In this document: positions 3,972-43,903 of the stretch, one piece after another
Layout of the letters: every line of letters begins with the position of its first letter
How positions within the stretch are numbered: the first letter of the stretch is position 1
Origin: a virus
Length of the DNA: 44,756 bases
Direction: 5' to 3' (one strand)
Virus record (IMG/VR): IMGVR_UViG_3300023179_008461
Coordinates: 1-44,756 of that record
The notes under the pieces: model-generated
The model's database searches: none
Told to the model about the DNA's origin: nothing
What the model saw: only the letters and a program-made list of their open reading frames with translations
Position numbers and translations under genes: made by a program

Positions 3972-3975
3972 CGCT

Positions 3976-6655: not shown

Positions 6656-6969
6656 TGATCTAACCTCTTCACTGTCACGCCGGCTGCGGCGACGTCTGAT
6701 ACCTTGAACGGATACCACCTCTCGTTCGTCTCATCCCAGGCATTGACGAAGTCGTCTCCCACTTCCTTCACGACACAGATGATGTTGTTTGACTTCGTGT
6801 TACCGCCACGAGCTACAACAATCTCTCCGCCTACGGGGACGATGAACTTACCCTCGACTATCGCCGGAGGTAGGGCATCGAACTTTGGTCCCTTGGGAGC
6901 TTTCCGACCGGGCTTGCTTTCGATGATCGGCTTGTCGTCCTTCTTGATGATCGATTTTCTAGCTACCAT
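6652..6969 (-). CDS. Small SH3-like/KOW-like basic protein (105 aa)
   Basis: The start chosen is the ATG at 6969 with GGAGAAAG before it; longer frames run back through the glycosylase gene in another frame. The first 35 residues are lysine-rich (KKDDK, GRKAPKGPK). The rest looks like a beta barrel: VGGEIVVARGG, ICVVKEVGDDFVNAWD, WYPFKVSDV. It overlaps the MBD4-like gene upstream by 11 bases and the methylase downstream by 4. It may bind nucleic acid, but no motif proves it. Confidence 0.6.
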   Translation of the reverse strand: MVARKSIIKKDDKPIIESKPGRKAPKGPKFDALPPAIVEGKFIVPVGGEIVVARGGNTKSNNIICVVKEVGDDFVNAWDETNERWYPFKVSDVAAAGVTVKRLDQ

Positions 6970-7375
6970 GTTTCTTTCTCCATCTGTAGTACTTCGCGAG
7001 AGATCCATCCCGGGGGCACTCGGGTGGAAGAACACCCAGGACGAAGACGTCCCATGCAGCTGAACCATACTCTCCAATGCCAGGAAGTTCACGTGCATGC
7101 TGCCAGTTTGACGTCAGATATTCTCGTGACATGTCAATGAGGTTCTTAGTACGCCTGTTTCTAAAACCCAGCGGGGCAATGATGCGTGACAACTCTTCTG
7201 GGTTTGCAGCAGCCATAGACTGTGCATCTGGATACGCTTCAAAGAGAGCGGGAACAATCTTCTCCATTGCACGACGCGTCGTGAGGTTCAACAGCATACA
7301 CGCTACCAAAATCTTCCATCGATCTGGCCAGAGGTCCTCTTGGATGAGGCTGACTGGTGACTTCGGCGGAATCAT
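6959..7375 (-). CDS. HhH-GPD DNA glycosylase resembling MBD4 catalytic domain
   Basis: At 138 residues this is about the size of the isolated catalytic domain of mammalian MBD4, which removes T or U mispaired with G. The parallels with MBD4 run along the whole protein: LIQEDLWPDRWKILVA (10-25), the LLNLTTRRA segment (28-36), the helix-hairpin-helix loop LPGIGEYG (97-104), and PRDGSLAKYYRW (121-132), where Asp123 takes the place of the catalytic Asp. There is no iron-sulphur cluster motif, unlike EndoIII or MutY. The start overlaps the upstream stop as ATGA. It would start repair of deaminated cytosine or 5-methylcytosine in phage DNA. Confidence 0.82.
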   Translation of the reverse strand: MIPPKSPVSLIQEDLWPDRWKILVACMLLNLTTRRAMEKIVPALFEAYPDAQSMAAANPEELSRIIAPLGFRNRRTKNLIDMSREYLTSNWQHARELPGIGEYGSAAWDVFVLGVLPPECPRDGSLAKYYRWRKKHGS

Positions 7376-8481
7376 ACAGTGTCGTAGGTCTGAGTAATTG
7401 CCTGGAGGTCTTCTAGCGTCTTAAGTGGCTTGAACCTCACGTCCCTCGGCACCGCGACATACTTTGTATCGAAGTTCTCCGTCAGATCTTGGATCAGACG
7501 TTCATATTGTACTACCATCTTTCCACGTACTTGGCGACGAACTCTGTGCCAAGACCACTTGACGTGTGAGAAGTCAAGATCAGCATCGAAGATGAAGGTG
7601 TTGGTGTTGAGCCAGACAAACTGCGATGTGTCAGTCTTGGGAGACATTCTAAACATCTCAACGATCTGATTGATGCCTCCCGTGCTACACAAGACACCTC
7701 CCGTGTCCCCTGGTGATCGTGCTACTACTTCACACGTAACAGAAGCGCTTGAGACGATATGTTGTCCGATGATCGAGTAGTCTGGCGTCGCTGCCAAGTT
7801 ATCGACGTTGACAACACATATGTGTTTTCCTCCGTCATCAATGAATTTCTGTAACAATCCGCTCTCTTGTAGGGCAGGAGCTATGTCACCGTGACCGCAC
7901 GGGTAGAAGCTAGGTCTTCCTGCTTCGTCTAGAAAGACCTGATTGTCTAGTGTCAGACGTACGCTCTCGAACTGCATAAAGACTTTTACATGCTCAGTAC
8001 CAGGAAGGGACTGTACGTGCTCTACTACATCTTCGTAGTTCTCTGGTGAGGTCATTACCCATACATTTTTCAGCTCTGCTGTGGCCTCGAGCTTGAGTTG
8101 AAGCAGTGACTTTCCGCTCTTAGGTAGCTTGACAAGCCCTTTTGTCACTCCAAGACCAAGCCGAGTTCCGGCACCGCCACACAGTATGCAGAAAGCAACT
8201 CTTCCTGATGTGTAAGCAGCGTATCCTGTGTGAGTCACATCTGTTGCGATGTCACCGTAGTCAATGATACAGTCGCTACTCGGGTTATCTGCATTGACAG
8301 TGTGATCGACAGGTTCGACGACACATTTAACAATGTCGTCTAACCGCAGACCACCACGTCGATCTATCCTCTGCCTCTCTTCAGCTGTAAGTCCTGCGAG
8401 CTGTGAAGACAGCACTGTAAGAAACCCAGGGGCCGATCTCACCATGTCAGCATCATACTGCCGCCGATGTAATATGTTCAT
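7372..8481 (-). CDS. UDP-sugar pyrophosphorylase (UDPGP family)
   Basis: This 369-residue enzyme would join UTP and a sugar-1-phosphate to give a UDP-sugar and pyrophosphate. The nucleotide-binding loop is ILCGGAGTRLG (99-109), followed by the basic LVKLPKSGKS segment. YPCGHGDI (193-200) is the substrate loop, and VNVDNLAA (224-231) carries the metal-binding Asp. It is closer to eukaryote-type UGPase and UDP-GlcNAc pyrophosphorylase than to bacterial GalU. With the two epimerases at 32971-34995 it suggests a phage sugar pathway for modifying DNA or virion proteins. The start overlaps the SpeD stop (ATGA). Confidence 0.82.
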   Translation of the reverse strand: MNILHRRQYDADMVRSAPGFLTVLSSQLAGLTAEERQRIDRRGGLRLDDIVKCVVEPVDHTVNADNPSSDCIIDYGDIATDVTHTGYAAYTSGRVAFCILCGGAGTRLGLGVTKGLVKLPKSGKSLLQLKLEATAELKNVWVMTSPENYEDVVEHVQSLPGTEHVKVFMQFESVRLTLDNQVFLDEAGRPSFYPCGHGDIAPALQESGLLQKFIDDGGKHICVVNVDNLAATPDYSIIGQHIVSSASVTCEVVARSPGDTGGVLCSTGGINQIVEMFRMSPKTDTSQFVWLNTNTFIFDADLDFSHVKWSWHRVRRQVRGKMVVQYERLIQDLTENFDTKYVAVPRDVRFKPLKTLEDLQAITQTYDTV

Positions 8482-19568: not shown

Positions 19569-20453
19569 TCAAAGATATCTCCAAAGAAATCCACCAGCAT
19601 GCTTTAGCACACCCCTCAAACACGACATCAAGCTCGATTTAGGAGTCGAAGTCTTTCTAGATGCATCGCATATGGAGAGAAATACGTTTATCACCTCACC
19701 TGTCGTCATGTCGATTTGTTGAACTTTCTTGTTCCCTTTCTTGCCTGATAACAACAGTCTTATTTCTGCTTCTGCATGCTTCTTACGTGTCGCTTCTTCT
19801 TGCCACGACTTTTTGATACCTTCGCTACGTTTTTCTATGAAGGCGGGATCAGACATCTTCAATGCTATCTTTTCTTTGACAACGGACGATTGCATCGCTT
19901 CTCTCGTCCGTAGCGAAACTTTCTCTTTCATTCCGGCTTGAGACATGATGGAATGCGTAACTTCTGCGCGAAGTTGTCGACGCTCAGGATTCATTTCCCA
20001 AAATCTCTTTTGGGCTTCGCTATTTCTCTTGCGAGCTTCAGGCCTATTCATGGCTTCGCGGTGCGCTCGTCGGCCGGCTTCTGTTCGTTTAATGCCTTCT
20101 CCGCCCTTCGTTTCGTTGTAACCATTTTCGTCGACAGTTGAGCAATAAGTTTTTATCCAATGCTGTTCTCTAGCTAGTGCGTCATCCAACGAAGTGCACA
20201 CTTCCAACAACATGTGATCAAACGCATCGTGTCCGTACTTTCTAATCGCACGTTGAAATGCCCATCGTGCTCCTTTCTTGGCGGAGTATACGTGTGATTT
20301 CCATCTTGTCATCAGCAGTTTGTTGGCATAGGAACTAATTTGCTCAGGAGACATGCTTTCGAAAATGCAGGCTTCGAGCTTCGAAGTCCTCGGTGTAAAG
20401 CCAACATAAGACTTTTGATTTTCACGATTCACGTGTCTATAGACGATCCACAT
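19569..20453 (-). CDS. GIY-YIG homing endonuclease with NUMOD1-type end
   Basis: A 294-residue free-standing homing nuclease. The GIY-YIG core begins VYRHVNRENQKSYVGF (4-19), followed by the Arg helix (MTRWKSHVYSA) and KGARWAFQRAIRKYG. A long basic middle (AHREAMNRPEARKRNSEA) is typical of nuclease-associated modules, and the C terminus (VQQIDMTTGEVINVF, then SSLMSCLRGVLKHAGGFLW) resembles the NUMOD1 helix-turn-helix DNA-binding repeat. It sits in the gap between the divergent NMN-transferase-like gene and the tagged protein, which is typical for such elements. Its start is one base from the divergent gene's region. Confidence 0.85.
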   Translation of the reverse strand: MWIVYRHVNRENQKSYVGFTPRTSKLEACIFESMSPEQISSYANKLLMTRWKSHVYSAKKGARWAFQRAIRKYGHDAFDHMLLEVCTSLDDALAREQHWIKTYCSTVDENGYNETKGGEGIKRTEAGRRAHREAMNRPEARKRNSEAQKRFWEMNPERRQLRAEVTHSIMSQAGMKEKVSLRTREAMQSSVVKEKIALKMSDPAFIEKRSEGIKKSWQEEATRKKHAEAEIRLLLSGKKGNKKVQQIDMTTGEVINVFLSICDASRKTSTPKSSLMSCLRGVLKHAGGFLWRYL

Positions 20454-22100: not shown

Positions 22101-23129
22101 TTAAATAGTAGATGCGTGTGTGAAGTGTTCGCTTAAGTTTAGCAGTACTGATTCATCAACATGAACGAAAATCGAGTTGTTGGCATCACACCATTTCTTG
22201 GCAGCGTCGAATTTCAATCGGTTAATTTCGAGTGAAGCAAGCTTGGCAGGCTTGATCTCGCACAGGATGCGACGTCCACTGTGCAGAACCAGAAAGTCTG
22301 CGTAATAGATGCGGTTCTTTCCATTGTGAACATAGGGTATGCCTATGTTGCCGTCGAGGATCTCTGTCTGCGTCTCTACACACCATTCTAGGAATCGCTT
22401 CTCCCAAGAGCTACGATACCAGTGGATGCCCCAGGGCGTTTCAAGATGACCAGTCTCATGACGAGATACAGAATTTTGATAAGCTTTCTCGTGTATACTT
22501 TTGACCTGCATAGGATGGTCAACACCGTATTTTTCTCGGCAACGCTCGAGCATACCATGCTTTATCACTTCAGATCTCATAGGGTTATCCACACCATGAC
22601 GATCTAAAATTGTCTGTTTAATTTTCTCGGCAGAAAATACGAAAGGTGAAGAATGACCATATCTGGCGACGTTGGTGTTCGCAATTTTCTGTTGTATGTC
22701 TTCACTTTGCGAGACATTCGGCACACCGTATCTTTCGATGCATGTCTCACGTGATTTCTGTCTGATAGCTTCAGATTTCATAGGAGCTGTAACACCATAC
22801 TTCTCAAACCATGTTGCTGCTGCTTTCTGTTTGAAGATATCAAGGGTTGAAGGACTCTCAACACCATACCTTTCAAGATTGGTTTGGCGGATCTTCTCCT
22901 TCACTTCCTCTTTCGAGAAAGGGTTTTGAACGATCTGGCTCATCAATCCTGAGCTTTGTGAGGCAGATTTGCACTTACGTGAACAAAAGTGTTTGGATGT
23001 GAGGACTTTGTTGTTAGTGTAAGACTTCTCAAACTCAATTCCGCAGTGATCGCATTTAAGCTCGTACACAGACTTGAAGTCCCATCTCTTGGGACGCTTA
23101 CTTTTCTCTTGTCGAATACGTAACAACAT
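22101..23129 (-). CDS. Homing endonuclease with YGV repeats and PD-(D/E)XK core
   Basis: A 342-residue protein. A Cys4-type finger near residues 25-57 (CDHCGIEF...HFCSRKC) is followed by about six copies of a 30-40-residue repeat with the core ERYGVxxPxxS, a DNA-binding module known from phage homing nucleases. The C-terminal domain is PD-(D/E)XK-like: SSWEKRFLEWC, YYADFLVLHSG, CEIKPAKL. The start at 23129 is chosen because GATATGTA ends five bases upstream; an ATG at 23135 overlaps that box. It is a free-standing element between the tagged protein and the ligase-like gene. Confidence 0.8.
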   Translation of the reverse strand: MLLRIRQEKSKRPKRWDFKSVYELKCDHCGIEFEKSYTNNKVLTSKHFCSRKCKSASQSSGLMSQIVQNPFSKEEVKEKIRQTNLERYGVESPSTLDIFKQKAAATWFEKYGVTAPMKSEAIRQKSRETCIERYGVPNVSQSEDIQQKIANTNVARYGHSSPFVFSAEKIKQTILDRHGVDNPMRSEVIKHGMLERCREKYGVDHPMQVKSIHEKAYQNSVSRHETGHLETPWGIHWYRSSWEKRFLEWCVETQTEILDGNIGIPYVHNGKNRIYYADFLVLHSGRRILCEIKPAKLASLEINRLKFDAAKKWCDANNSIFVHVDESVLLNLSEHFTHASTI

Positions 23130-23130
23130 A

Positions 23131-23149
23131 GACATACATATCGTATGTC
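23131..23149 (-). promoter_or_regulatory. Octamer GATATGTA within a 7-bp hairpin at the nuclease start
   Basis: GACATAC and GTATGTC form a 7-bp stem with a five-base loop (23131-23149). The GATATGTA octamer (23135-23142) spans the loop and one arm, and the ATG follows at 23129. In transcripts that start further upstream the stem would lie directly before the start codon and could hinder translation, as hairpins do for some T4 homing nuclease genes. Confidence 0.4.
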
Positions 23150-23173: not shown

Positions 23174-24454
23174 TCATTTACCAGGCATTTTCAACTTTGT
23201 ACCGCCTCTGCCGTACTTGAAAAGGCCCAAAATGGCATTTGCGCTTGCAAAGCTGCCGGTGAACTTGTATGCGTTGCCCTTGTAGATGAAGACGACGCCC
23301 TCAACGGGAGACGTGATGTTGCTGACGCTCTTCAGCTTGTCCATCTGCGTCTTCAAGACGCCCATCGCTGTCTCGTCGCCGGACGCCTCTATCGCCGTGA
23401 TGGCGTTCTGAACCTCGCCTCGCAGACGTTCGACCTCTCTGTCTGTGTCGTCGATCAGCGTCGACTCGAGGCCCTTCAGCAACTCCACGGCGAAGTCGTT
23501 GATGGCCAGCTCTATAGGTCGTACGTAACTCTTGAGCAGTGCAGGAGAACTTCTGGCAAATTGAGATATAGCATCTCGTTGTGATATTTCAGCCATTCTC
23601 TTCACAGCATTGAGGCCCATGGCGCCTTCGATGCCCAGGCAGTAGTCTATCAAGGCATCCTCGACGTCTTCAGAGAGTCCCAGCTCTTCCATGTCACTGC
23701 GAAGATGGATCCGCAGGAAGTCCCCCATCGTGTTTGATGGGCCTACACCGACTTCGGCGATTGTAGCATCGATCGCAGCTAGCGTCTCACTCAATGTCTC
23801 GCCGTTCGACAACTTCGACATCCGGACTATGGCTGGTCCTCTGACTCGCCATCCCTTGACAGAGACAGACTTCTGCATCCTGTCGACGAAGTTGGTGAGT
23901 AGATCAACACCGCCTGCATCGTCCTCTGTCATCTCGACGGTTCCGTCGTCTTCACGCTTGAAGACGGGCCAACCGTGGAACACGATGTTGTTAGAGTCGT
24001 AGTTGATGACGTTCGGATTGCTGGTGTAGATGACCTCCATCGAGTACCACCTGTTCGCGCGAGGTCCGAATATCTTCAGCTTTGTTCTGTCTGACAACGC
24101 TGAAAGAGCACCATCGAGTACCTTGAAAGCAGTCGTGAAGGCCTCCTCAACAGACCCTCGACCCGCGAATTTCGCTGCGAGGGCTGAAGCGTCCATGCCG
24201 CCCGACCTTATGTCAGATCCACGTGTCACCTTTACACGACTCTCTTCTACATTGTAAGAGAAGACGAGGTTCATACCGTCCATCTTCTCCGACGCTTTCT
24301 CGAGACGTCCAGAAGCCGCCTTTCGCAGTATGGACTTGATCTCGTGGAATGTTAGGTCCTTGTTGTCGTACAGGTGTTGCAGGTGTCCGACAAGCCCGCC
24401 GCACAATAAGAGCGTCTTACCTCCAGCAGAATTTTTGAGGCTCTCACGAAGCAT
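23174..24454 (-). CDS. ATP-grasp-free ligase-like nucleotidyltransferase (426 aa)
   Basis: The start MLRESLKNSAGGK carries the tag remnant LRES. Residues 55-60, EKMDGM, match ligase motif I (KxDG) with Lys57 as candidate adenylated residue. SMEVIYTSNP is in motif III position, EGVVFIYKGN (385-394) fits motif IV, and YKFTG with Lys397 fits motif V. This suggests a DNA or RNA ligase-type fold; similar proteins in marine phages are of unknown function. A homing endonuclease gene overlaps its first 11 bases, so it lies at the insertion edge. Activity is uncertain because spacing differs from classical ligases. Confidence 0.6.
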   Translation of the reverse strand: MLRESLKNSAGGKTLLLCGGLVGHLQHLYDNKDLTFHEIKSILRKAASGRLEKASEKMDGMNLVFSYNVEESRVKVTRGSDIRSGGMDASALAAKFAGRGSVEEAFTTAFKVLDGALSALSDRTKLKIFGPRANRWYSMEVIYTSNPNVINYDSNNIVFHGWPVFKREDDGTVEMTEDDAGGVDLLTNFVDRMQKSVSVKGWRVRGPAIVRMSKLSNGETLSETLAAIDATIAEVGVGPSNTMGDFLRIHLRSDMEELGLSEDVEDALIDYCLGIEGAMGLNAVKRMAEISQRDAISQFARSSPALLKSYVRPIELAINDFAVELLKGLESTLIDDTDREVERLRGEVQNAITAIEASGDETAMGVLKTQMDKLKSVSNITSPVEGVVFIYKGNAYKFTGSFASANAILGLFKYGRGGTKLKMPGK

Positions 24455-25172
24455 TTTTTGCCTCAAAAAGTGCCAGAAGCATTTCACATGTCATGTGACT
24501 TTTTCGACTTTTAGCCTTGTTCTCTGATGAAGGTATGATCCGTATATTTGAAAGACACGCAGCTACTTCAACAGATAAACCATGATCAAATGCTTCACGA
24601 ATTGAGACGATATGATCTAATTCGTATCCTTTTCCTCGAAGTCTCGCATTTTCGATCTGATAGAAGTGCTTCATATATGTTGCGTCTGTTGCCTTTCTAA
24701 CTTGATCCCGATATGCAACAAAGGGATCTTTGTCTTCAGGCGGCAGCCAGCGCCCGTTCTGGGTGTTTGTCACTCTCATTTTATCGAATCTGTCATTTTT
24801 GTCCTTCTCGTCGACAGAAGACCACCAGGACTTAGTTACATCTCTCATTTTTTGTCGATATTCTTCGCTAGACATCATCCTGCGATAGCTGCTGTTCGGA
24901 TCTTTCCATTTTTCAGAAATCTGCTTTCCTATGCTGGGATTAATCGGACGAAGCCTGGCTTTCTCGCTCATGATTTCGACAGAAGCTGCAGAGTGTTTCT
25001 TGCCATAGAAGGGATTGTCCCTGCCAGACATTATGATAGACGGATCTTGTAAAGGTGCTTCTGGGAATTTCTGTCTGTATTCTGAGACTGTAATTTCGTG
25101 TCTGACAAGATGGTTTCGAGTAATCTGCTTGAGTTGCTTTCCACATATCTCACATGATATCATGAAATACAT
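24444..25172 (-). CDS. HNH homing endonuclease with NUMOD3-type segment
   Basis: A 242-residue free-standing nuclease. An N-terminal finger (CEICGKQLKQITRNHLVRH) is followed by a NUMOD3-like NPFYGKKHSAASVEIMS and a C-terminal HNH domain: YELDHIVSIREAF, then LSNIRIIPSSENKAKS with the Asn and closing residues expected. This HNH type is common next to T4-like phage genes. It precedes and overlaps the ligase-like gene. The start could also be the ATG three codons later. Confidence 0.85.
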   Translation of the reverse strand: MYFMISCEICGKQLKQITRNHLVRHEITVSEYRQKFPEAPLQDPSIIMSGRDNPFYGKKHSAASVEIMSEKARLRPINPSIGKQISEKWKDPNSSYRRMMSSEEYRQKMRDVTKSWWSSVDEKDKNDRFDKMRVTNTQNGRWLPPEDKDPFVAYRDQVRKATDATYMKHFYQIENARLRGKGYELDHIVSIREAFDHGLSVEVAACLSNIRIIPSSENKAKSRKSHMTCEMLLALFEAKNAS

Positions 25173-30233: not shown

Positions 30234-30976
30234 GCAGAGCCTCCCATGGGACCTGCAGCACCGGCCTTGGGGGCTTCAAACTCTTCCTCAGCGTCCTTAG
30301 CAGACTTGCCAATCTCGACACCGTATCCATCGAGAAGCTCAGCACTGAATCCGTCAACCACGTCTTGCTCGTAAGACTTGGCCAAGTAGTTTGTCGCGCG
30401 ACGAAGGATTGTGTTACGAACTTCAAGAAGCGAGTCATAGTTGTCTATGAGACGCATCACGTCTGTGACAAATGACTTTATGTCGATGTCGTCAGAAGAG
30501 AGTTTCTTGGGCACTTCGGACTTCTCTTCCTTGTCCTTGTCTTCAGCATCTTCGTCTGCCTCTTTCTCTGCCTCTATGAGGAATCTGCGTGTGAGAGACC
30601 TAAAGTCACGTCCCTCAGTCTTCACATGCTTAGCCTCAGCCTCGTAATCAGAGAGAAGACGATCGACTTGAGAGTCTAGAGAGTCCTCACCGTCGACAGG
30701 CTTCTCTTCTTTGCTGGCTTCTCTAAGCAATGACTTAACGATGCTTCGCAAAGAGCGTGACTCATTAGTAACTGCATAAGGGTCTACAAATCGAATACCG
30801 AACTTCTCAGAGTCTGGTCCGAACTTGAACTTTACCTGAGAGGCCAGAACTTCACGTTTATCGTGACCTGATTTAGTTCCGACAACAAGTGTACCCGGCT
30901 TCTTGCCTTTTTGGTGAACAAAGACTGGGGTGGGGCCGTTAATAGGGTCCCAATGTGTAGCAGGAACAGGTGTCAT
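30230..30976 (-). CDS. Conserved phage virion-type protein with internal tag-like helices
   Basis: The start at 30976 is fixed by TGATG overlap with the SOD gene. Residues near 75-92, SLRSIVKSLLREASKEE, and near 125-140, FRSLTRRFLIEAEKE, are two internal copies of the tag-like helix, each with an (L/I)xE site. An acidic segment (ADEDAEDKDKEE) comes next, then a conserved-looking domain with FVTDVMRLIDNYDSLL and ILRRATNYLAKSY. I recall similar sequences in large T4-like phages. If a prohead protease cuts at these sites it would release three pieces. Confidence 0.6.
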   Translation of the reverse strand: MTPVPATHWDPINGPTPVFVHQKGKKPGTLVVGTKSGHDKREVLASQVKFKFGPDSEKFGIRFVDPYAVTNESRSLRSIVKSLLREASKEEKPVDGEDSLDSQVDRLLSDYEAEAKHVKTEGRDFRSLTRRFLIEAEKEADEDAEDKDKEEKSEVPKKLSSDDIDIKSFVTDVMRLIDNYDSLLEVRNTILRRATNYLAKSYEQDVVDGFSAELLDGYGVEIGKSAKDAEEEFEAPKAGAAGPMGGSA

Positions 30977-31704
30977 CACTTCACCACCTGGGCCATAGCC
31001 TCTGCCTTCTTGAATCTGTCTTCGATGACTGTCCAATTGAACTCTCTCATCTGAGCCACAAGGTAGCTCTTGAAGTCATTGAGATAGTCCTTGTAGTACG
31101 CATGCTCCCAGCAATCGATGACGACGAGGGGATAGAAACCAACCGGTACGTTACCGCTGTGCTCATCAAAGAAGAAGTTAACGTACTTCTTGAGGAAGAG
31201 ATGGTAGCCGCACACGACCCATCCGCCGCGAGATGCGTTTGCGCATGCCATGAAGTCTCGCTGCCAGTCTTCGAAAGTACCGAAGTCACGCTCCAGTCGT
31301 AGATACGAAAGAGAGTCCATCACAATCTCGCTGTGAGGATCAAAGCAGTTAGCAAAGTACAGCTCGTGTAGCCACGCTGCATTCAGGTTCCAAGTCTCAT
31401 CAAGCTTGAGTGATCTGTATTGCGAGTGTCTCGAATTGGCAGCACCGCGTTCAGCAGTGTCCAGCTCAGCAGACGTCTTATTGAGGGCTTCGAGATAGTT
31501 CTTGTACTTCTCAACGTGAGCGCTCTTAGTCTTCTGTGACACAAATTCTGAGACCTGCTTGAACTGCTTGGGCTCAGCTACGTACGACTCGGCCAAATTC
31601 TCAGCAGGAAGTTTAGAGTCTTCCTTGGATATTTGTGACTTGATACTGGTCTCGACGATCGAGTCGAGATCTAGGTCAGCAAGAACCTTCTTAATCGATT
31701 TCAT
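30976..31704 (-). CDS. Fe/Mn superoxide dismutase-like protein with N-terminal extension
   Basis: Residues 60-242 follow the Fe/Mn-SOD fold. Likely metal ligands are His63 (AHVEKYKNYLEALN), His113 (AWLHELYFAN), and Asp197 with His201 in VVIDCWEHAYY. DFGTFEDWQRDFMACA (140-155) and GGWVV (160-164) match the family's second half. All four ligands are present, so dismutation of superoxide is plausible. The first 60 residues are extra and contain a helix, LDLDSIVETSIKSQIS, resembling the tag on capsid-type proteins. It is embedded between tagged proteins and overlaps both neighbours, so it is probably made late and may be packaged. Confidence 0.82.
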   Translation of the reverse strand: MKSIKKVLADLDLDSIVETSIKSQISKEDSKLPAENLAESYVAEPKQFKQVSEFVSQKTKSAHVEKYKNYLEALNKTSAELDTAERGAANSRHSQYRSLKLDETWNLNAAWLHELYFANCFDPHSEIVMDSLSYLRLERDFGTFEDWQRDFMACANASRGGWVVCGYHLFLKKYVNFFFDEHSGNVPVGFYPLVVIDCWEHAYYKDYLNDFKSYLVAQMREFNWTVIEDRFKKAEAMAQVVK

Positions 31705-35968: not shown

Positions 35969-37045
35969 TTATGCCATTTGCCTCATCTTGAACATAGAAG
36001 TTGAGAAACCCCACTGCGGATCGTGCTGCACCTTGCCCACCCAGAGGGTGTAGGGCTTGATCTCCTCTTGTGGAGTGCCCCACACTCTGATCCATGCAGT
36101 GCGGAAGTCGTCGTCGATCGCCTTGCAACGGTAGAAGGTCTTGCCGTTCTTCGTCTTCTTCATCTCCGCAGACGCCATGCAGAACCAGCCGATGCCTTCA
36201 GATCCAGCAGGGATGTCGTGGAGGCGAGGAACCTCCTTGGCTGCCACCTTCTTCATCACTTCTGGCGGGAAGAGCAGATCTCCGTCGATCATAGAAGTGA
36301 GTTCGAAGCACATATTGATCTTCTCGTCACGGGACCAGTCCTCAGTGGAAGCCAGCTCCTCGAGGAGGAAGTCGATGATCGGAATGACAGGCTCACCGGC
36401 CTTCTCTTTCTTCTTCAGCTGCGATGCAGTGAGTCCATACAGACCCTTGCGGAGGGTCTCGTAGTTCTTGTCCTCGGTGAGAGCGAGCAGAAGCTGCTTG
36501 TGGTTTGCAATACGACCATATTGGAAGTCCTCGAGCGACTCTAGACCCTCGATCTGACAGAGAGCTGAGAGGACCGTCTTGTTCACCTTACCCGGGCGCC
36601 ACTCACCGCTGTCTGTGTAGAGCATGTCCTTGAGGTCCCTGTACGGACGGCTCGCCATGATCTCTTCGACAGCCGCGTTGCCGACTCCCTTGACGGAGCC
36701 GAGGGGTGGAACGAAGGCGCCGGCTGCTTCTGAGTACTGCCACTCCTTACCCGAGTAGTTGACGTCGTGCTTCGAGAACTTGTAGCCCAGTGCTTTGACC
36801 TCAGAGATGACCTTGGAAAGCTCCTTAGGATTTGAGGATGCTGACTGAAGGATCGTGGCGAGCCAGTCCTTCTCGTAGTGGGTGTGGAGCCACGCTGCAT
36901 AGTAGGAGTCGAGGGCATAGGAGACTGAGTGGGAATTAGATGTTAGCATCCCACTTGCTAGATAGAACTGATGATCAGGATGCTCGACTTCTAGATCGTA
37001 AGTCTGATGTCTTCCAGCAGGTGTGATAGACTTGATATTAGTCAT
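35969..37045 (-). CDS. dnaE: DnaE polymerase, fourth fragment (C-intein 3 + C-terminal extein)
   Basis: The C-terminal part of a bacterial-type DNA polymerase III alpha chain. Residues 1-37 are a C-intein (block F TYDLEVEHPDHQFYLASG, ending LTSN). Residue 38 is the splice-acceptor Ser in SHSVSYALDSYYAAWLHTHY, the continuation of the conserved GFNKSHS motif. The following 321 residues include the helix-hairpin-helix region (VPPLGSVKGVGNAAVEEI) and an OB-like fold near the end (FYRCKAIDDDFRTAWIRVWG). It overlaps the endonuclease upstream by four bases. It must join the third fragment to be part of a polymerase. Confidence 0.9.
   Translation of the reverse strand: MTNIKSITPAGRHQTYDLEVEHPDHQFYLASGMLTSNSHSVSYALDSYYAAWLHTHYEKDWLATILQSASSNPKELSKVISEVKALGYKFSKHDVNYSGKEWQYSEAAGAFVPPLGSVKGVGNAAVEEIMASRPYRDLKDMLYTDSGEWRPGKVNKTVLSALCQIEGLESLEDFQYGRIANHKQLLLALTEDKNYETLRKGLYGLTASQLKKKEKAGEPVIPIIDFLLEELASTEDWSRDEKINMCFELTSMIDGDLLFPPEVMKKVAAKEVPRLHDIPAGSEGIGWFCMASAEMKKTKNGKTFYRCKAIDDDFRTAWIRVWGTPQEEIKPYTLWVGKVQHDPQWGFSTSMFKMRQMA
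36935..37045 (-). other. Split intein 3, C-terminal half (37 aa)
   Basis: Block F TYDLEVEHPDHQFYLASG and block G LTSN, with Ser as +1 residue. The penultimate residue is Ser instead of the usual His. It pairs with the N-half at 37911-38261. Confidence 0.85.
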
Positions 37046-38052
37046 GGCGATGATGTCAATCCTAGTCTTTCGAGAGTCAAGTATGCACTTCCGATTCTAA
37101 AAATTCCTGGTTTTGGATCCTTTAGAATTTGCAGAAGAGATTGAAGACAGCTGTCGATAAAATGGCCACCATTTCGATACGAGAACTGATCATAAGAAAT
37201 TCTTACTAATGTCCAACCGTTCTTCTCAATATGTCGATCTAACATTTCGTCAGATAGCTGTACGGTGTCGAATATGTGCTGCCCTTTGATAGGACTAAAG
37301 TGGATCATTCCATCAAATTCGATATAGACACGTCGTGTTTTATCAGCGATGTCTATTTGTTTTCTGTGAGATTTGTTTGTAAAGTCACTAGACTTAACAA
37401 CTTGATTGTGTCGAAAGTTAAAACCTTCAATATCTTTGACTGTGTCAAATAGCACGATTTCTGGCTTGCTATGCCAGACAGCGTGCATCTTTTTTGTGCA
37501 TTTTTCGTAGAATTCTTCTCGATTGTTGTCTCTCCACTGCTTCAAACGCTCTGATCTTTTCTTAAGAATATCGCTTCTGGCCGATGTTCTCTTTGCAGCT
37601 TCTGAGGAGCGTTTTCTGCCTTCATCACTTCTATTCAACGCAATCATATTCGAATGACGTGACATTCGTGCAGAAGCAGATGCCAATATACCGCGTGACT
37701 TTGCCTCACCGTGACCTTCTCCGTTTTCCTTACCGATGCAGCTAAATGTTTCGGCCAATTCTTGTGCAATGGTTTGACCATCGTATTCTGACTTGAGAAG
37801 ATTATGCTGTCTAAAAAGATGCTTCGTTAGCACCCTAGCTTTCTCTCCGCAAAGCACGCATTTGACAAAGTGTAGTCCTTCAACGAGAGCGACTGTCGAA
37901 GGGCATCTCAGGACGTGCTTCCAGAAATACGAGTTTTCTTCTTTAAAGATTCGTCCGCATTCACAACGACACTTAGCCCTAGTTTGTGAATCTTCCACAA
38001 GGGAAGCATCTCTCCCGTCTCGACTGTCCTGAATTTGTGATCCCATGTGCAT
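37042..38052 (-). CDS. Vsr-like homing endonuclease 3 between dnaE fragments
   Basis: A 336-residue ORF in the break between dnaE fragments 3 and 4. An N-terminal Cys/His segment (CRCECGRIFKEE...HVLRC, then CVLCGEKARVLTKHLFRQH) would bind zinc. A basic helical middle leads to a nuclease core, RVYIEFDGMIHFSP, followed by LDRHIEKNGWTLVRISYDQF, the pattern of the Vsr/EDxHD family found with split inteins and phage introns. Its start lies 145 bases inside the N-intein reading frame, with GGAG upstream, and its stop overlaps the start of fragment 4 (ATGA). Confidence 0.78.
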   Translation of the reverse strand: MHMGSQIQDSRDGRDASLVEDSQTRAKCRCECGRIFKEENSYFWKHVLRCPSTVALVEGLHFVKCVLCGEKARVLTKHLFRQHNLLKSEYDGQTIAQELAETFSCIGKENGEGHGEAKSRGILASASARMSRHSNMIALNRSDEGRKRSSEAAKRTSARSDILKKRSERLKQWRDNNREEFYEKCTKKMHAVWHSKPEIVLFDTVKDIEGFNFRHNQVVKSSDFTNKSHRKQIDIADKTRRVYIEFDGMIHFSPIKGQHIFDTVQLSDEMLDRHIEKNGWTLVRISYDQFSYRNGGHFIDSCLQSLLQILKDPKPGIFRIGSAYLTLERLGLTSSP

Positions 38053-38627
38053 TTGACTTTTTCTCCAGAAGTAAGTTCTACTTCGACGAGATCTAGAACA
38101 CCATGATCATGACGATCTACCACTCTTGTGAGTGTGTCTTTTCCTGTGCTTTCATCTCTCGTAAGAAGTAAATCTCCTCGAGAAACTTCAGACATTTTCT
38201 TTTTGGTGTTGAACGTCCCGTCTTCAAAATAAGTATTTACTTCCTCGGCAAAGTACAAACTTTTATTGAAGCCGTAGAGTGAGAAGAACTCGATCTTGTC
38301 GAAGAGCTCGTGCATCTTCTTCTCGTCCAGGCCGTGCAGCTCCTTGGCACCCGTAACGAACCTCTCACGGAGCTGTGCACGTTCACCACCCTTCTTGTCA
38401 GCGGTGTCGAGCGACTTCTTGACGAGCGTCTTCCTCATCTTGTCTGCCTCACCCTCGCTGAATCCAGCCAGCTCCATTGAGAGCAACATAAATTGCTCTT
38501 GAAAGCAATTTGAAACTAAGAAGCCGTTTGCAAAGAAATTGTGATTCTTTTCAACGCCGATGTCGTAAACATGCTTGACAGAACCTTTGCGAATTGACTT
38601 AATCTTAGAAGTTTTTAGAGCTGTCAT
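37908..38627 (-). CDS. dnaE: DnaE polymerase, third fragment (C-intein 2 + extein + N-intein 3)
   Basis: A 239-residue ORF in three parts: C-intein 2 (1-40), an 82-residue extein (41-122) from CFQEQFMLLSMELAGFSEGE to FFSLYGFNK, and N-intein 3 (123-239) starting with Ser. The extein is the polymerase fingers region; QEQ and YGFNK are among the most conserved DnaE motifs, and both borders fall inside them. The protein can only function after two trans-splicing reactions. It overlaps the endonuclease ORFs on both sides. Confidence 0.9.
   Translation of the reverse strand: MTALKTSKIKSIRKGSVKHVYDIGVEKNHNFFANGFLVSNCFQEQFMLLSMELAGFSEGEADKMRKTLVKKSLDTADKKGGERAQLRERFVTGAKELHGLDEKKMHELFDKIEFFSLYGFNKSLYFAEEVNTYFEDGTFNTKKKMSEVSRGDLLLTRDESTGKDTLTRVVDRHDHGVLDLVEVELTSGEKVKCTWDHKFRTVETGEMLPLWKIHKLGLSVVVNADESLKKKTRISGSTS
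37911..38261 (-). other. Split intein 3, N-terminal half (Ser1 type, up to 117 aa)
   Basis: Starts Ser in SLYFAEEVNTYFEDGTFN after GFNK. Block A continues MSEVSRGDLLL and block B is CTWDHKFRTVETGE. Ser at position 1 replaces the usual Cys. The last part overlaps the endonuclease ORF and may not be needed. Confidence 0.8.
38508..38627 (-). other. Split intein 2, C-terminal half (40 aa)
   Basis: A canonical C-intein with block F VYDIGVEKNHNFFANG and block G FLVSN, followed by Cys+1 of the extein CFQEQ. As in intein 3, the penultimate residue is Ser. Confidence 0.88.
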
Positions 38628-39375
38628 TCTTGATACCCTTTAAGGACTCGAGGTAAGCATGAGATTCTGACTGCCACACTCTAACAATCTTATGTCCGGA
38701 AGAGATAGCCTTTGCATTGTTTGCCTCATCAAGTCTGAATTGCTTCTTCATGCGATCGGACAGTGCATAGTGGGCTTTGTTACCGTGCCAAAAATCTCCG
38801 TCAAATTCTATGATGGTATTGGTTGAAGGTATAAAAATATCATAAACGTGGCTGTAATCAGGAATCATGAAATTTCTAATAGCGTCAGGATGTATGACAA
38901 GAATCTCTTTGAAAAAATCTTCTTCTGCGTGTGATGTCTTGCGAAAATCACAGTTCTTCTTCGCATCTTTCATTTTTCTGCGGCGCTCTGCAGCAATTTC
39001 TTTTGGTGCGTGTTTCAAGCTTTTGTGTATCAGAAGAGATCGTCTGCTTTTGAATGACACATCACACACAAAGCATTTCTCACTCGTCAAAAGATCGGCT
39101 ATGGAACAATAAGACATGTGAGACCGAAGTGAAGTATTTGATGTAAATTTCTTGTCGCATACGCGACAATAAAATTCTCCATCAATCCTAATTTTTTCTC
39201 TCGTCTTTGCTGCGTTTTGCTTCGATATAGTCTCAGGAGAGAGTTTTCTCCCGCGCATTTTTTGAAGCGATTCTTCAGAATGTTTTCTTGTCTTGTAGGC
39301 AAGACCCATACAGATACGTGAACAATAAGTCTTTTGCTTACAAAGTTGTTTTTTACAAACGTAACATTTTTTCAT
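38605..39375 (-). CDS. Vsr-like homing endonuclease 2 between dnaE fragments
   Basis: A 256-residue ORF with three Cys/His fingers (CYVCKKQLCKQKTYCSRIC near 4-22; CRVCDKKFTSNTSLRSHMSYC near 70-90; CFVCDVSFKSRRSLLIHKSLKH near 101-122) and a C-terminal nuclease core HVYDIFIP, IIEFDGDFWHGN, then SGHKIVRVWQSES. This is the same nuclease type as in the other two breaks. It begins 38 bases after the stop of fragment 2, beyond an 8-bp hairpin (39384-39412), and overlaps the start of fragment 3. Confidence 0.82.
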   Translation of the reverse strand: MKKCYVCKKQLCKQKTYCSRICMGLAYKTRKHSEESLQKMRGRKLSPETISKQNAAKTREKIRIDGEFYCRVCDKKFTSNTSLRSHMSYCSIADLLTSEKCFVCDVSFKSRRSLLIHKSLKHAPKEIAAERRRKMKDAKKNCDFRKTSHAEEDFFKEILVIHPDAIRNFMIPDYSHVYDIFIPSTNTIIEFDGDFWHGNKAHYALSDRMKKQFRLDEANNAKAISSGHKIVRVWQSESHAYLESLKGIKNDSSKNF

Positions 39376-39412
39376 TTATACTCTTTCAAGAGCAGTACAG
39401 TGGTTCTTGAAA

Positions 39413-40660
39413 CTAAGTATTTAAGCACAAGATCTCGTCATCAATTTTTAGCTCTCCAGCAGGAACTTTTCCTCGCGTAGTATAAACGACGTGATCTGAA
39501 GTAAGTTCTATCTCACCGTCATCTGTCTCTATGACGATTGTTTCTCTTTCTCCCTGATCATAGAATTGAGTGATCATATCAGAAACAACAGTACCTGTTT
39601 CAGCATCGAAAGAAGGCAATGCAAGACTTTTCTTATGTTTTACAATTTCTTCAATTGTAAATTCTCCTGACTCGGTTGTCACTTTCGTATCACCTGTCAG
39701 ACACATAAAGCCTCTCGTGGCTCCCAAGACCTTCTCGATGAGAGGATGGTCGTACTTGATGCCCTCGATGTTCTTACCGGCGTCGACGTACATGTTGTGG
39801 ACGTTCGCCTTGAGGGGACCCGGTCGGTAGATCGCCGTTACTGCAGCGAGCTCGTCGATGTTGTTTGGAGCTGCCTGCATGCAGAACTTACGAGCTCCGG
39901 AAGCAGTGAACTGGAAGACACCGACGAATCGACCTTCGTGATAGACGTGTCGCCAAACGATCGGATCGTCCTGTTTCACATAGCGGCAGTTGAGATGCTT
40001 GTCGAAGAAGTCCTTGATGTCTGTGAAGGTCGGGTCTGGGTTGCCCTGTTTGATGAGGATTCGACGGATGCAGTTCTCTACGTCCTTGAGGAGCGTGAGT
40101 CCCAGGAAGTCGAACTTGAGGAATCCGTTCTCCTCGAGGTTGCGGAAGTTCATGCCCTCAGACCACGGCGTCTGAAGCTCGCCGCGGACGGAGATGATGG
40201 GCATCGTGGCTGCAAGCTCGTCCGGATCGGAGACGAGGACGCCGCCAGCATGGCGGCCGACAGAACGATTCTGCATGAAGAGGGTGTTGATGTGGTCTTC
40301 GACCTCCGGGTACTTCTCCATGAAAGCCTTATACTTGGGAGAGTACTTCATGCAGTCGTCGTGCTTCAGGACGAAGACCGACTTCTCTGTGTCTTCGTCT
40401 CGGGCGAGGTTCATCACCTCGTCCTGCAGGGGTCCCGTCATTTCGTTGACCTCCTCGAAGGGAACGTTGTAGATCTTCGAGATGTCTTTGACGAGAGACT
40501 TCAGCTTCAGCGTGTTGAAGTTGGACACAGGGATGACTGCGTCGTCGCCGAAGAGCTCGCGAGATGCCTCGATCAGAACGTCACGATCGCCGGCGTCAGA
40601 ATTGTGTGAACCTACAGCAAGTTTGCGCTTTAAGAAGCTGTGAATTTTAGCGACAATCAT
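39413..40660 (-). CDS. dnaE: DnaE polymerase, second fragment (C-intein 1 + palm extein + N-intein 2)
   Basis: A 415-residue ORF. A 20-residue C-intein ends GSHN, then the extein begins SDAGDRD. It holds the second catalytic Asp of PDxDxD, the third in FLKFDFLGL, and the motifs GRHAGGVLVS and AIYRPGPL. The extein (299 residues) ends at GATRGFM, then N-intein 2 (96 residues) begins CLTGDTKV. The start overlaps the end of endonuclease 1 as ATGATTGTCGCTAA, which implies coupled translation. It cannot act alone since the first catalytic Asp is in fragment 1. Confidence 0.92.
   Translation of the reverse strand: MIVAKIHSFLKRKLAVGSHNSDAGDRDVLIEASRELFGDDAVIPVSNFNTLKLKSLVKDISKIYNVPFEEVNEMTGPLQDEVMNLARDEDTEKSVFVLKHDDCMKYSPKYKAFMEKYPEVEDHINTLFMQNRSVGRHAGGVLVSDPDELAATMPIISVRGELQTPWSEGMNFRNLEENGFLKFDFLGLTLLKDVENCIRRILIKQGNPDPTFTDIKDFFDKHLNCRYVKQDDPIVWRHVYHEGRFVGVFQFTASGARKFCMQAAPNNIDELAAVTAIYRPGPLKANVHNMYVDAGKNIEGIKYDHPLIEKVLGATRGFMCLTGDTKVTTESGEFTIEEIVKHKKSLALPSFDAETGTVVSDMITQFYDQGERETIVIETDDGEIELTSDHVVYTTRGKVPAGELKIDDEILCLNT
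39416..39703 (-). other. Split intein 2, N-terminal half (96 aa)
   Basis: Begins Cys1 in CLTGDTKVTTESGEFTIEEI (block A) with block B ELTSDHVVYTTRG. It lies between extein GFM and the FQEQ motif of fragment 3. Length and motifs match natural split-intein N-halves. Confidence 0.88.
40601..40660 (-). other. Split intein 1, very short C-terminal half (20 aa)
   Basis: MIVAKIHSFLKRKLAVGSHN followed by Ser+1 of the extein. HSFLKRKLAVGSHN aligns with the end of block F plus block G (HNFFA...HN). The usual block F opening (YDIEVE) is absent and is found in the N-half instead, so the break lies unusually close to the C terminus. Confidence 0.7.
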
Positions 40661-41711
40661 TTACGAACTCCTGAATTCTTTTCAGAACCTCTGAACGTTT
40701 AGTTTCCCAATCTCTCTCCCACACGACGAAAGTCTTTATTCCAAGGCATTGTGCTGCTAAAAGACGCGTTTCGTCTTTTTGTCGAACATCACGTGCTGTA
40801 AGCCCCTCTCGGATGAAATGTGCGTCTGGGTAGATTGATGGATTTGCATGGAAATAGTCACCGTAGAATTCGATAGCAAGTTCGAGGGGCTCAACATAGT
40901 AGTCGAAAAATCCAATTGCATCGTCGTATACGAATCTTTTTTGAGAATTTTTGTAAGAGCGAGTCTCGCTGTCTGCGAAGACCTCTTGATCAAGAAAGTC
41001 CACCATCTCTCTTTCGCCCCGAGAGACCGTAATACCGCTCGAACGAATTTGATATTCGACGTGCGGGTTGATGCCCCTCCAAGGATTATCGCGGCCGATT
41101 CGATCGAGCAGTGTGTCTTTTCTTTTCTTTTCTAGAAGATGTGACTCAGATGAATGTTTTACTCCATACCTTTCTACCATCGTGGTGATCATCTTTTCAC
41201 GCATGTCTTTTCTTTGCAGGGGACGAAAAACTCCATGCTTTTCGAGCATTGAGCTTTCATACCGAAGTGTATAAGATGCACAACGATGAAGCACAGACTT
41301 GCAACAGCTTCTACAAAATGGTGAGTCTTTTGTGAGAAATTTTACTGCAATCGGGAAAGAATAGCTTGATCCGCAATCTGGGCACTTGAAAGTCGCTACG
41401 ATTTTAGAAGAGTCTGACGATTTTAGCGGATTTCCGAAGGGATCTGTCGCTAATAATCGATGTTTTCTTGAGAGTTTCGATAGTGATATTCTCCCGAGGA
41501 AAGGCTCTCCGTTTAACGTCATGTCAGCATGGAAATTAATGTTGTCAATCCCCATCTTGATATCTGCTTTAAAATTCCGCTGTAACACGTCTTTTTCAAG
41601 TGCAGAAGCAGATACAAATCCTGCTAAATCAGCAGCTACGCGTTTGATCTCCTCCCAGGACTCCCACCCTAGTGATTCCGCTACCGACTTTAGACTCACC
41701 TGTTTGAACAT
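40647..41711 (-). CDS. Vsr-like homing endonuclease 1 with DnaE-derived N terminus
   Basis: A 354-residue ORF between dnaE fragments 1 and 2. The first 40 or so residues (FKQVSLKSVAESLGWESWEE) resemble DnaE extein sequence, FNTLKLKSLV and PFEEV in fragment 2. Next come a zinc ribbon (CPDCGSS...CRSCC), three YGV-type repeats (EKHGVFRPLQ, ERYGVKHSSES, LDRIGRDNPWRG) and the nuclease core LAIEFYGDYFHANP with CLGIKTFVVWERDW, all known from phage homing nucleases. The ATG has GAGGGG ten bases upstream and sits inside fragment 1's reading frame. It overlaps fragment 2 by 14 bases. Confidence 0.8.
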   Translation of the reverse strand: MFKQVSLKSVAESLGWESWEEIKRVAADLAGFVSASALEKDVLQRNFKADIKMGIDNINFHADMTLNGEPFLGRISLSKLSRKHRLLATDPFGNPLKSSDSSKIVATFKCPDCGSSYSFPIAVKFLTKDSPFCRSCCKSVLHRCASYTLRYESSMLEKHGVFRPLQRKDMREKMITTMVERYGVKHSSESHLLEKKRKDTLLDRIGRDNPWRGINPHVEYQIRSSGITVSRGEREMVDFLDQEVFADSETRSYKNSQKRFVYDDAIGFFDYYVEPLELAIEFYGDYFHANPSIYPDAHFIREGLTARDVRQKDETRLLAAQCLGIKTFVVWERDWETKRSEVLKRIQEFVNDCR

Positions 41712-43635
41712 GTGCTACGATCCCCTCTGCTGCGTCAGCATCTAAGTCATAGGTATAGATGCAGCAATGGGCAGCGACATTATTTTTGGTAAGTTCTAGC
41801 GAGTCAAAAGGAACCACCCAGAACGTAGAGGATCCTTCAACTGTAATGTCAACAAGATCTACGTGCTTTTCGACGTGATGATTCTTTCCCAAGACAAGAA
41901 TGTCGCCGTCCTTGCCGAGAAGTAGGTCACCAGGACCGACATCTTCTGCCGTAATTTCCTTGTGGATCGAAGTAAGAAGGCGATGCTTGTGATTCGCCAC
42001 GATCACACCGACTGTTCCGTCCTGGCTTCTCAGAAAAAGGTCGTACACGACATCATCGTCATTTGACTTTCTACGTTGACAGAATGTGACGCGTCTCTCA
42101 ACGTTGTGAGAATCAATCACAGTATCACCAACTTGTAGATCAGAGATAGGAACACTACCGTTCGGGGTGACCACCATGTGGTTTGACTTCAAACAATCAA
42201 TGTCAGGCCAGCCTGCCTTCTGTCGATTGAGGAAGCGGCCCCACAGCAGGTTGTACTGGATGGGATCGAACTGTGTGATGCCCAGCAGGAAGTTGACGAG
42301 AGAGCTCGGACCGCTGCCTCGACCCGGTCCGAGGAGAGTTCGTGTCTCGGCACGGTGGAAGATCTTGTACATCGTCACGAAGTAGGAGGCGTGTCCCAGG
42401 AACTTGATGTCAGAAAGCTCCATCTTCGCGCGCTTGACGTACTCAGGCTTGTCAGCTAGACCCTCACGATCGAGGCCCTCTTTGACGAGCCGTGTGAGCT
42501 GTTGGAACGTAGAGTTTCCCGGCTCGTCGAGCTTCGGTAGCTTCGCCTTCGTGTCGATCCACACGTCTTCGCACATCTGCCATGCGATGTCGTGAGTCCG
42601 TTCGATCGCGTCTCGCACCTCTTCTTCAGCACCCTTGTAGAACTCATACTCACTGTGAGACGCCTTGAACTCGTCCCACATCTGAGTGGCATTCTTGGGG
42701 TACAGCTCACACTTCAGGTCCTCAAATTTCGGTAGTGCGTTGCCGTCAAGCTTCTGGCCCATCCAGCCCAGCTTCTTGTAGAGCTCACGGGCCTGCCACT
42801 TAGACGGATCAGGATAGTGAGAGTCGCAGGTGGCGATCAGCTTCACGCCTGTCTTGCGAGACAGATCGATGAGATACTTGTTCACCGTATGCTGCTTCGG
42901 CAGCTTGTTGAACTGAATCTCGAGAAAGAAGTTGTCGGTGCCGACGGCGTCGGTGAAGCGGTCAGTGAGGTTCGAGAGCTGAGCAATGATCTCTTCTGAC
43001 GACTTACCATACGCCTCACCGCGCAGGATCGCACCAGAAAAAATTCCTCCGAGGCACGCTGAAGACCACACGATGCCCTTGCCGTACTTTCGGAGAAGAT
43101 CGAAGTCGATTCGAGGATAACGGTAGAATCCGTCCTTGAAGGACGCCTTCACGAGACGGTAGATGTTGGCCATGCCCTCTTTGTTCTGGGCGACGGCGAC
43201 GAGGTGGTATCGGCGCTGCCAGTCGGGCTTCTCCTTGTAGTCGTCGGCCTTGGTCTCCGCCTCGTCCTCGACGACGTGGCCGCCGGCCTCTTCCTCTTCG
43301 ACCTCGTCAGCGTCGATGTCAGTTCGGATCTTCGCTTTCTTCTCGGCTTCAGCAGCAGTCTTTGCGTCTTTGACTGACTGCTTGTGGGCTTCGAAGTCGA
43401 TCTTCCACTGTGCAAGCGAGGGAACGAAGTAGAACTCGACGCCGTACAGCTGTCGATACTTCTTGCCGCTCTTCTGCGTCTTTGCCGCTGCTGCTCGTGC
43501 GTGAGCGTGTCCGTTGCCGTTGCCGTGGTCTGTCAGGGCCCAGGCATCCATGCCTTGTGCCTCGGAAGTGACAAACGAGATGTGTGAGTCCGGGTAGCCG
43601 AGTCCGTCAAATGTTGAGAAGCCTGATCTTTTCAC
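41629..43635 (-). CDS. dnaE: DnaE polymerase, first fragment (PHP/palm extein + N-intein 1)
   Basis: A 668-residue ORF. Residues 1-480 are the start of a family C replicative polymerase: a PHP domain (WALTDHGN near 32-39, ATCDSHYPD near 268-276), then the palm with LGPGRGSGPSSLVNF and the first active-site Asp in PDID. Residues 481-668 are intein. The start is GTG at 43635, in the arm of a 23-bp inverted repeat. The usual HxH metal motif of the PHP N terminus is missing, about eight residues short of other family members. An acidic insert (DADEVEEEEAGGHVVEDEAE) interrupts the PHP domain. Confidence 0.9.
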   Translation of the reverse strand: MKRSGFSTFDGLGYPDSHISFVTSEAQGMDAWALTDHGNGNGHAHARAAAAKTQKSGKKYRQLYGVEFYFVPSLAQWKIDFEAHKQSVKDAKTAAEAEKKAKIRTDIDADEVEEEEAGGHVVEDEAETKADDYKEKPDWQRRYHLVAVAQNKEGMANIYRLVKASFKDGFYRYPRIDFDLLRKYGKGIVWSSACLGGIFSGAILRGEAYGKSSEEIIAQLSNLTDRFTDAVGTDNFFLEIQFNKLPKQHTVNKYLIDLSRKTGVKLIATCDSHYPDPSKWQARELYKKLGWMGQKLDGNALPKFEDLKCELYPKNATQMWDEFKASHSEYEFYKGAEEEVRDAIERTHDIAWQMCEDVWIDTKAKLPKLDEPGNSTFQQLTRLVKEGLDREGLADKPEYVKRAKMELSDIKFLGHASYFVTMYKIFHRAETRTLLGPGRGSGPSSLVNFLLGITQFDPIQYNLLWGRFLNRQKAGWPDIDCLKSNHMVVTPNGSVPISDLQVGDTVIDSHNVERRVTFCQRRKSNDDDVVYDLFLRSQDGTVGVIVANHKHRLLTSIHKEITAEDVGPGDLLLGKDGDILVLGKNHHVEKHVDLVDITVEGSSTFWVVPFDSLELTKNNVAAHCCIYTYDLDADAAEGIVAHVQTGESKVGSGITRVGVLGGDQTRSC
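41632..42195 (-). other. Split intein 1, N-terminal half with extra block F/G-like region
   Basis: Starts Cys1 in CLKSNHMVVTPNGSVPISDL (block A), with block B VANHKHRLLT. Unlike the other N-halves it continues to a block F-like VDLVDITVEGSSTFWVV and a degenerate end NNVAAHC|C. That region is followed by sequence resembling DnaE extein, up to the stop. Confidence 0.75.
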
Positions 43636-43699
43636 ATTCTGCGGGTGCCCACAACGTCAGAGTTCTTAGCTCGTCAGTTGTGGGCACCCGCAGAATGTG
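43633..43699 (-). repeat. 23-bp perfect inverted repeat covering the dnaE start codon
   Basis: Arms 43633-43655 and 43677-43699 are exact reverse complements, with a 21-base loop. The last three bases of the coding-strand stem are the GTG start of dnaE fragment 1. No T-run follows on either strand, so it is not a normal terminator. In mRNA the start codon would be buried in a very stable hairpin. Confidence 0.85.
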
Positions 43700-43903
43700 C
43701 ATGCAGCCCTACGAAGCGAGACGGTGGACGAACAGAAGATAGAGTCATGAGTATACTCTACAGTGCAAGACTTAGACTTTACACGCGTCGAAAAAACGAT
43801 TCGAGCGACCTGTGAGAGCCGCTGGGATTCTTCGTGATCTCTACAATTGTCTTGTGTCACACTTGTCATTCTAACGAATATTTTACTGTTTGCGCGCTAC
43901 ACA

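Follow-up and report, generated by a model that had tools for sequence, protein, structure and literature searches.

The 44,756-nucleotide virus record IMGVR_UViG_3300023179_008461 of IMG/VR, analyzed at its full length and hereafter called the window, belongs to a virus of bacteria whose DNA-copying enzyme, a DnaE-type DNA polymerase III alpha, is encoded in four gene pieces on the minus strand (43748 to 35969), with three endonuclease open reading frames (ORFs) between them. This dnaE is fractured threefold. In our reading, to which we assign a probability of roughly 90%, the gene was invaded three times by cassettes combining a split intein with a homing endonuclease, and the four resulting chains would be trans-spliced into one DnaE, the first intein representing a subfamily split between blocks F and G.

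Along the minus strand, on which all features of the window described here lie, the order is extein 1 (480 aa), the intein 1 N-half, endonuclease and C-half (N1, E1, C1), extein 2 (299 aa), N2, E2 and C2, extein 3 (82 aa), N3, E3 and C3, and extein 4 (321 aa). The four extein-bearing ORFs matched TIGR00594, the NCBIfam DnaE profile, in consecutive stretches (69-403, 409-675, 677-752, and 749-927), a tiling which agrees with the ORF and endonuclease order and with the fragment borders claimed by an earlier sequence-only reading of this DNA. Extein 1, apart from its interrupted start, occupies 42196..43626, ends in GWPDID and also matched PF07733 and PHP; extein 2 lies at 39704..40600, extein 3, cut from the finger domain region of DnaE and ending in GFNK, at 38262..38507, and extein 4, including the stop codon, at 35969..36934. 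The four extein lengths had been given correctly in that reading; its total of 1182 residues had not, as the polymerase would reach about 1197 aa with a conserved N-terminus at 43748-43692, and its GTG start at 43635 was mistaken, the gene starting at ATG 43748 with a 68-nt insert in between. Every extein and intein piece is an open frame with its start and stop intact. The G+C content,.53-.57 in the exteins versus.36-.48 in the intein and endonuclease segments, changes sharply at the predicted splice sites, and inteins 1, 2, and 3 each present the residues of class 1 inteins (Cys1, Cys1, and Ser1, respectively; a block B His; a terminal Asn; and Ser, Cys, and Ser at +1). No group I or group II intron was matched in an Rfam search of the dnaE region, and no further intein was found in the window with our own N- and C-intein hidden Markov models (HMMs).

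Relatives were collected by scanning IMG/VR with extein 2, which yielded 21, and then with their alignment, which yielded 80 loci; 76 distinct dnaE loci, a few of them near-identical, were mapped, and L-numbers label these and other loci. In L003, which is 79%, 89%, 85%, and 73% identical to the window in exteins 1-4, the four exteins are contiguous and no codon is missing or extra at sites 1-3. All three sites being empty to the exact codon in this relative, the layout of the window is therefore far beyond chance. More broadly, dnaE is intein-free in 60 of the 76 relatives, and the codons at the window sites are contiguous in 59-60 of them. These empty sites bear out the proposal that the exteins join inside conserved motifs, PDID to SDAG, GFM to CFQEQ, and GFNK to SHS.

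Inteins 2 and 3 follow the canonical organization, with block F in the C-half. Intein 2 comprises a 96-aa N-half (39416..39703; TIGR01445, E 2.6e-11) and a 40-aa C-half (38508..38627; TIGR01443, E 4e-10) ending in VSN before Cys, and when joined it matched solved inteins at 7e-17; halves 63% and 55% identical to these occupy the site in L131 and L132. Intein 3, with a Ser1 N-half (37911..38261) and a 37-aa C-half (36935..37045) ending in TSN before Ser, resembles Npu DnaE, which the joined sequence matched at 4e-10, and the same site (GFNK↓S, the arrow marking the splice junction) holds a homologous intein in six relatives (L022, L056, L062, L068, L074, and L109), with a homologous endonuclease in five of the six. 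The cyanobacterial split DnaE inteins (Npu and Ssp DnaE) share the host protein with the window and are related in sequence to its intein 3, whereas cyanobacterial DnaE has one split and no endonuclease, and the exact sites differ. We take the cyanobacterial site to lie in the same GFNKSHS/CFNKSH neighborhood as window intein 3. Site 2 has Cys at +1 in the window, L131, and L132, which bear the intein, and Thr, Val, Ile, or Ala in all 60 empty genes; this nucleophile thus came in together with the intein. Inteins 2 and 3 very likely trans-splice. There is a precedent for broken polymerase and reductase genes in which pieces assemble as they are, namely split NrdA and the split gene 43 of T4-like phages around homing endonucleases (PMC2988022), and the four DnaE pieces might likewise act as a non-covalent complex without splicing. 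We hold this to be extremely improbable in the window, where each border retains both intein halves together with the splice-site nucleophiles, the site 2 Cys follows the presence of the intein, and extein 3, from the finger domain region, would have to stand alone at just 82 aa.

Intein 1 has a different architecture. Its N-half (CLKSNH..., 41632..42195) runs for 188 aa to the stop codon, about 162 of which precede the endonuclease start, and its C-half (40601..40660) is MIVAKIHSFLKRKLAVGSHN followed by Ser, the ATG being immediately preceded by an in-frame stop codon, which leaves 20 aa only. A homologue at the same dnaE site of L131 is 39% identical and has the same layout, including a C-half of likewise 20 aa (11 of 20 identical to the window) whose TTG start overlaps the endonuclease stop. 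In both copies block F, which canonical split inteins carry in the C-half, was found in the N-half (KHVDLVDITVEGSSTFWV in the window, 41815..41868): among 25 aligned split inteins, 23 are split before block F, and the window intein and its L131 copy after it. Using a C-intein HMM built without the site-1 inteins, equally good matches were obtained from 0 of 2000 shuffles for the window N1 and from 14 of 2000 for that of L131. A stretch of about 35 residues following block F is partly conserved between the two copies, and the endonuclease is located between blocks F and G. We place intein 1 in a subfamily of its own, in which blocks A, B, and F reside in an N-half of 162 aa or more and block G alone in a 20-aa C-half. 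The element is real and its split position is new; its splicing activity is a prediction. The three split inteins of the sequence-only reading are accordingly real and have homologues elsewhere, although the non-canonical split of the first escaped it, and its suggested profile check of the borders succeeded for intein 2 (TIGR01445/TIGR01443) and intein 3 (Npu DnaE) and gave weak Hint matches only for intein 1 (PF07591, E 2e-4).

The 14-nt overlap of E1 with the start of C1 could also be taken to mean that intein 1 is canonical and that its missing C-half is supplied by a frameshift out of the E1 ORF. This is very unlikely: the end of E1 contains no block-F-like sequence, block F already residing in N1 in both copies, C1 starts directly after an in-frame stop, and the TTG start of its L131 counterpart shares nucleotides with the endonuclease stop. 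When more relatives of the F/G-split intein were sought in viral and genome contigs, L131 alone was found; tblastn against phage records gave chance-level matches only, and the 18 matches to the pattern N↓SDAGDR were all due to chance.

A reading of the endonucleases between the halves as three free-standing Vsr-like (EDxHD) enzymes is supported by homologous elements in other phages and by the predicted fold of E1. E1 (40647..41711) overlaps the tail of N1 and the start of C1. The C-terminal domain of its AlphaFold2 (AF2) model has a predicted local distance difference test score (pLDDT) above 90, and Foldseek related the model to I-Bth0305I (3r3p) and Vsr (1cw0) with a probability of 1.00 each, the modest E-values (0.025-0.027) reflecting disorder in one half of the model; a profile of the E1 family (23 members) also finds Vsr by sequence (E 0.003). 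E2 (38605..39375) combines C2H2 zinc fingers with a putative Vsr-like domain (TIGR00632 vsr, E 0.002) and has a 39% identical homologue between intein halves in L132, whereas E3 (37042..38052) is 34-40% identical to same-site endonucleases in five relatives and was aligned to the E1 family by hhalign (E 8e-5). Many other phage genes likewise have an E1 relative flanked by the two halves of a split intein. Endonucleases of the E1 type were also seen downstream of P-loop GxGK↓C sites in L176, L187, L193, L194, L195, and L216, where the flanking intein ORFs look atypically split, with a short N-half. The window itself has three more free-standing endonuclease-like genes (19569-20453, 22101-23135, and 24444-25172, of GIY-YIG, DUF7487/TnsA-like, and MucR/NUMOD3 type, respectively), which raised the possibility of another fractured gene at 18-26 kb; this was rejected, no intein halves being present there.

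Related dnaE genes are an intein hotspot: elements are present in 16 relatives and use four different sites, namely SA↓C, GPGRG↓S, GRHR↓T, and window site 3, GFNK↓S. By pattern scans, window site 2 is occupied in L131 and L132, and site 1 in L131 only. The dnaE of L131, a phage that the sequence-only reading had overlooked together with the 5' interruption treated below, has four split inteins, at SA↓C, PDVD↓C, QFTS↓S, and GHI↓C; the three of the window are therefore no maximum. In the L131 locus (about 1500-8230, minus strand), a single endonuclease gene remains between intein halves. At GRHR↓T, nearly the same intein is split and accompanied by an endonuclease in L045 and is a fused cis mini-intein without endonuclease in L046, which suggests that the split and fused states interconvert. 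In L019 (8393-9810), the halves of the GRHR↓T intein flank a 192-aa ORF and a Dam-like methyltransferase gene rather than an endonuclease.

The extein dN/dS (ratio of nonsynonymous to synonymous substitution rates) versus L003-L005 was 0.03-0.13 where dS could be estimated, so that the window exteins appear to be under purifying selection; dS is, however, near saturation, and constraint on the window branch is consequently not isolated. Several further observations weigh against a functional, spliced DnaE. The record holds no dnaE other than these pieces, but as it is a 44.8-kb fragment, many relatives lying on contigs of 80-284 kb, an intact dnaE may exist elsewhere in the genome. Intein 1 has no His in block F and N/S in place of T in block B, for which reason it might be slow or dead; its layout is known from two copies, it matched no PDB sequence, being too divergent for confirmation by sequence or fold, and an AF2 model of N1 built from two sequences (pLDDT 36.5) was set aside as giving no fold support. 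Finally, the 5' hairpin insert could mean an inactive allele. The divergence of intein 1, the hairpin and stops at the 5' end, and the fragmentary record would all suit a dnaE in decay, broken by endonucleases, with intein halves as relics and a phage that relies on the host or on a second polymerase. We consider such decay unlikely in view of the open extein and intein pieces, the apparent purifying selection on the exteins, and the conservation of the intein and endonuclease layouts, overlaps included, in distant phages.

Under the trans-splicing reading, each endonuclease would cleave dnaE at the uninterrupted codon of a relative infecting the same cell, after which it would be copied in along with the flanking intein halves. 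Four precursor chains would be made from ORFs that lie close together or overlap, and their intein halves would pair and trans-splice to produce a single DnaE about 1.2 thousand residues long, presumably the polymerase that replicates the phage. Replication would in that case depend on three trans-splicing events, as the sequence-only reading proposed. Dassa et al. (2009), as recounted in PMC11766414 and PMC12350094, reported genes fractured by split inteins together with free-standing endonucleases of the Vsr-like/EDxHD type; further cases are AceL NrdHF (PMC7891396) and the PolB of phage MIJ3 (PMC6892783). As in these, an N-intein, an endonuclease gene, and a C-intein follow one another where a phage gene of DNA metabolism encodes a conserved motif: the window dnaE is broken into separate ORFs at conserved motifs and is intact in relatives, N- and C-intein halves stand at the borders (at site 1 recognized mainly through homology to L131), and an EDxHD/Vsr-type ORF is predicted between the halves (from the fold for E1, from a weak vsr-model match only for E2, and from hhalign for E3). 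What sets the window apart is that a single replicative polymerase gene has three cassettes in series (L131 has four split inteins) and that one intein is split between blocks F and G. One essential polymerase gene could then tolerate three to four serial trans-splicing breaks.

The short C-half of intein 1 is best compared with engineered S11 splits (Ssp GyrB, Ssp DnaX, and Ter DnaE-3, with a 6-aa C-intein; PMC3620165), the only form in which the literature surveyed reports very short C-halves. Both have a large N-half and a very short C-half containing block G only; in contrast to the S11 splits, intein 1 is natural, has 20 aa in the C-half and about 35 aa conserved after block F, and bears an endonuclease at the split. 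The shortest natural C-half tabulated in PMC11766414 is 30 aa (Neq Pol), and PMC7891396 anticipated that split inteins with unusually short fragments, until then laboratory products, would turn up in nature; intein 1 would be a natural split of this kind, with a very short C-end fragment. The lone endonuclease insertion site in inteins has been called puzzling (PMC6801210), and intein 1 would be a natural intein with an endonuclease off the conserved site, as that source expects if free-standing endonucleases invade inteins at random. No natural precedent for the F/G split was found in the literature, a survey that did not cover Dassa et al. (2009) or the intein databases and that leaves priority unproven. 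A natural 20-aa C-intein would be useful in peptide ligation.

The start of the window dnaE is itself interrupted. Its first residues, MTLSSVRPPSRFVGLHAHS (43692..43748), contain the first PHP motif (HxH) and are homologous to the N-terminus IRPPxRFVGLHAHS of the relatives; the 68-nt insert (43624..43691) separates them from GFSTFDGL and contains an in-frame stop and a 23-bp perfect inverted repeat with arms at 43633-43655 and 43677-43699, the latter forming a predicted hairpin with a minimum free energy of -58.6 kcal/mol (z -5.7). A ribosomal bypass would land on TCA, the last three nucleotides of the insert. The same spot, at about dnaE codon 20, is interrupted in 17 of 78 relatives (L005, L009, L023, L034, L048, L050, L051, L052, L059, L065, L068, L091, L098, L100, L105, L107, and L132). 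L005 has a 38-nt gap with a GC-rich hairpin (TCG-TAG...TCG), and the other 16 have gaps of 9-12 nt in which the stop always directly follows S/T-x-F/A-S, with TCN before the resumed coding in 15; examples are TCC TAG GTA TCT in L048 and TCT TGA AAA A TCT in L107. Overall, the stop comes directly after TCN in 17/17 and the landing codon is TCN in 16/17, with an exact codon match only in L005, L098, L100, and L107. The trait changed 15 times on the dnaE tree.

A 303-aa endonuclease gene, whole or as a remnant, lies directly upstream of 12/18 interrupted versus 2/61 uninterrupted dnaE genes (7-9 to 0 among independent pairs, median p 0.008), and in L009, L034, L091, and L105 its last codons supply an apparent dnaE ribosome-binding site. 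Code reassignment was rejected because TAA, TAG, and TGA all occur, and a single frameshift or readthrough was rejected as a common cause, the gaps falling in all three frames and L009 and L023 having, within the gap, a second stop in the frame in which coding resumes. Downstream reinitiation is conceivable, yet the HxHS part stays conserved. The likeness to the bypass of T4 gene 60 and MobA consists of a 5' coding gap that other relatives do not have, gaps between matched or near-matched codons, a hairpin in the window and L005, and an upstream endonuclease in most interrupted relatives; unlike in T4 gene 60, the gaps are mostly 9-12 nt and the codons are those for Ser. The link to an endonuclease that marks a T4 gene 60-type bypass is present in the interrupted genes as a set and not in the window, which shows TCT/TCA codons with the first in-frame stop only five codons further on and no linked endonuclease in the 1 kb available upstream. 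Lacking both a stop right behind the take-off codon and, within that 1 kb, the upstream endonuclease, the window insert is not classed with T4 gene 60. We regard a bypass in the relatives as plausible, at about even odds, and in the window as having lower odds than that. That the dnaE family is both trans-spliced, with one natural F/G-split intein having a 20-aa C-half, and decoded across a programmed, endonuclease-linked ribosomal stop-hop near its start is a tentative proposal, with a somewhat less than even chance of being correct. A 2016 review knew of no natural in-frame stop hops and noted that the 50-nt bypass gap of T4 gene 60 may protect against a neighboring endonuclease (PMC5009743). 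The linked 5' interruptions provide a set of natural candidate stop-hops and, if the stop-hop reading is true, would be natural in-frame stop-hops and another example alongside T4 gene 60/MobA.

Elsewhere in the window, we observed a phage-borne Fe/Mn superoxide dismutase-like gene (30976-31704), a UvdE UV endonuclease gene (305-1234), and an Fpg-like DNA glycosylase gene (2652-3542).
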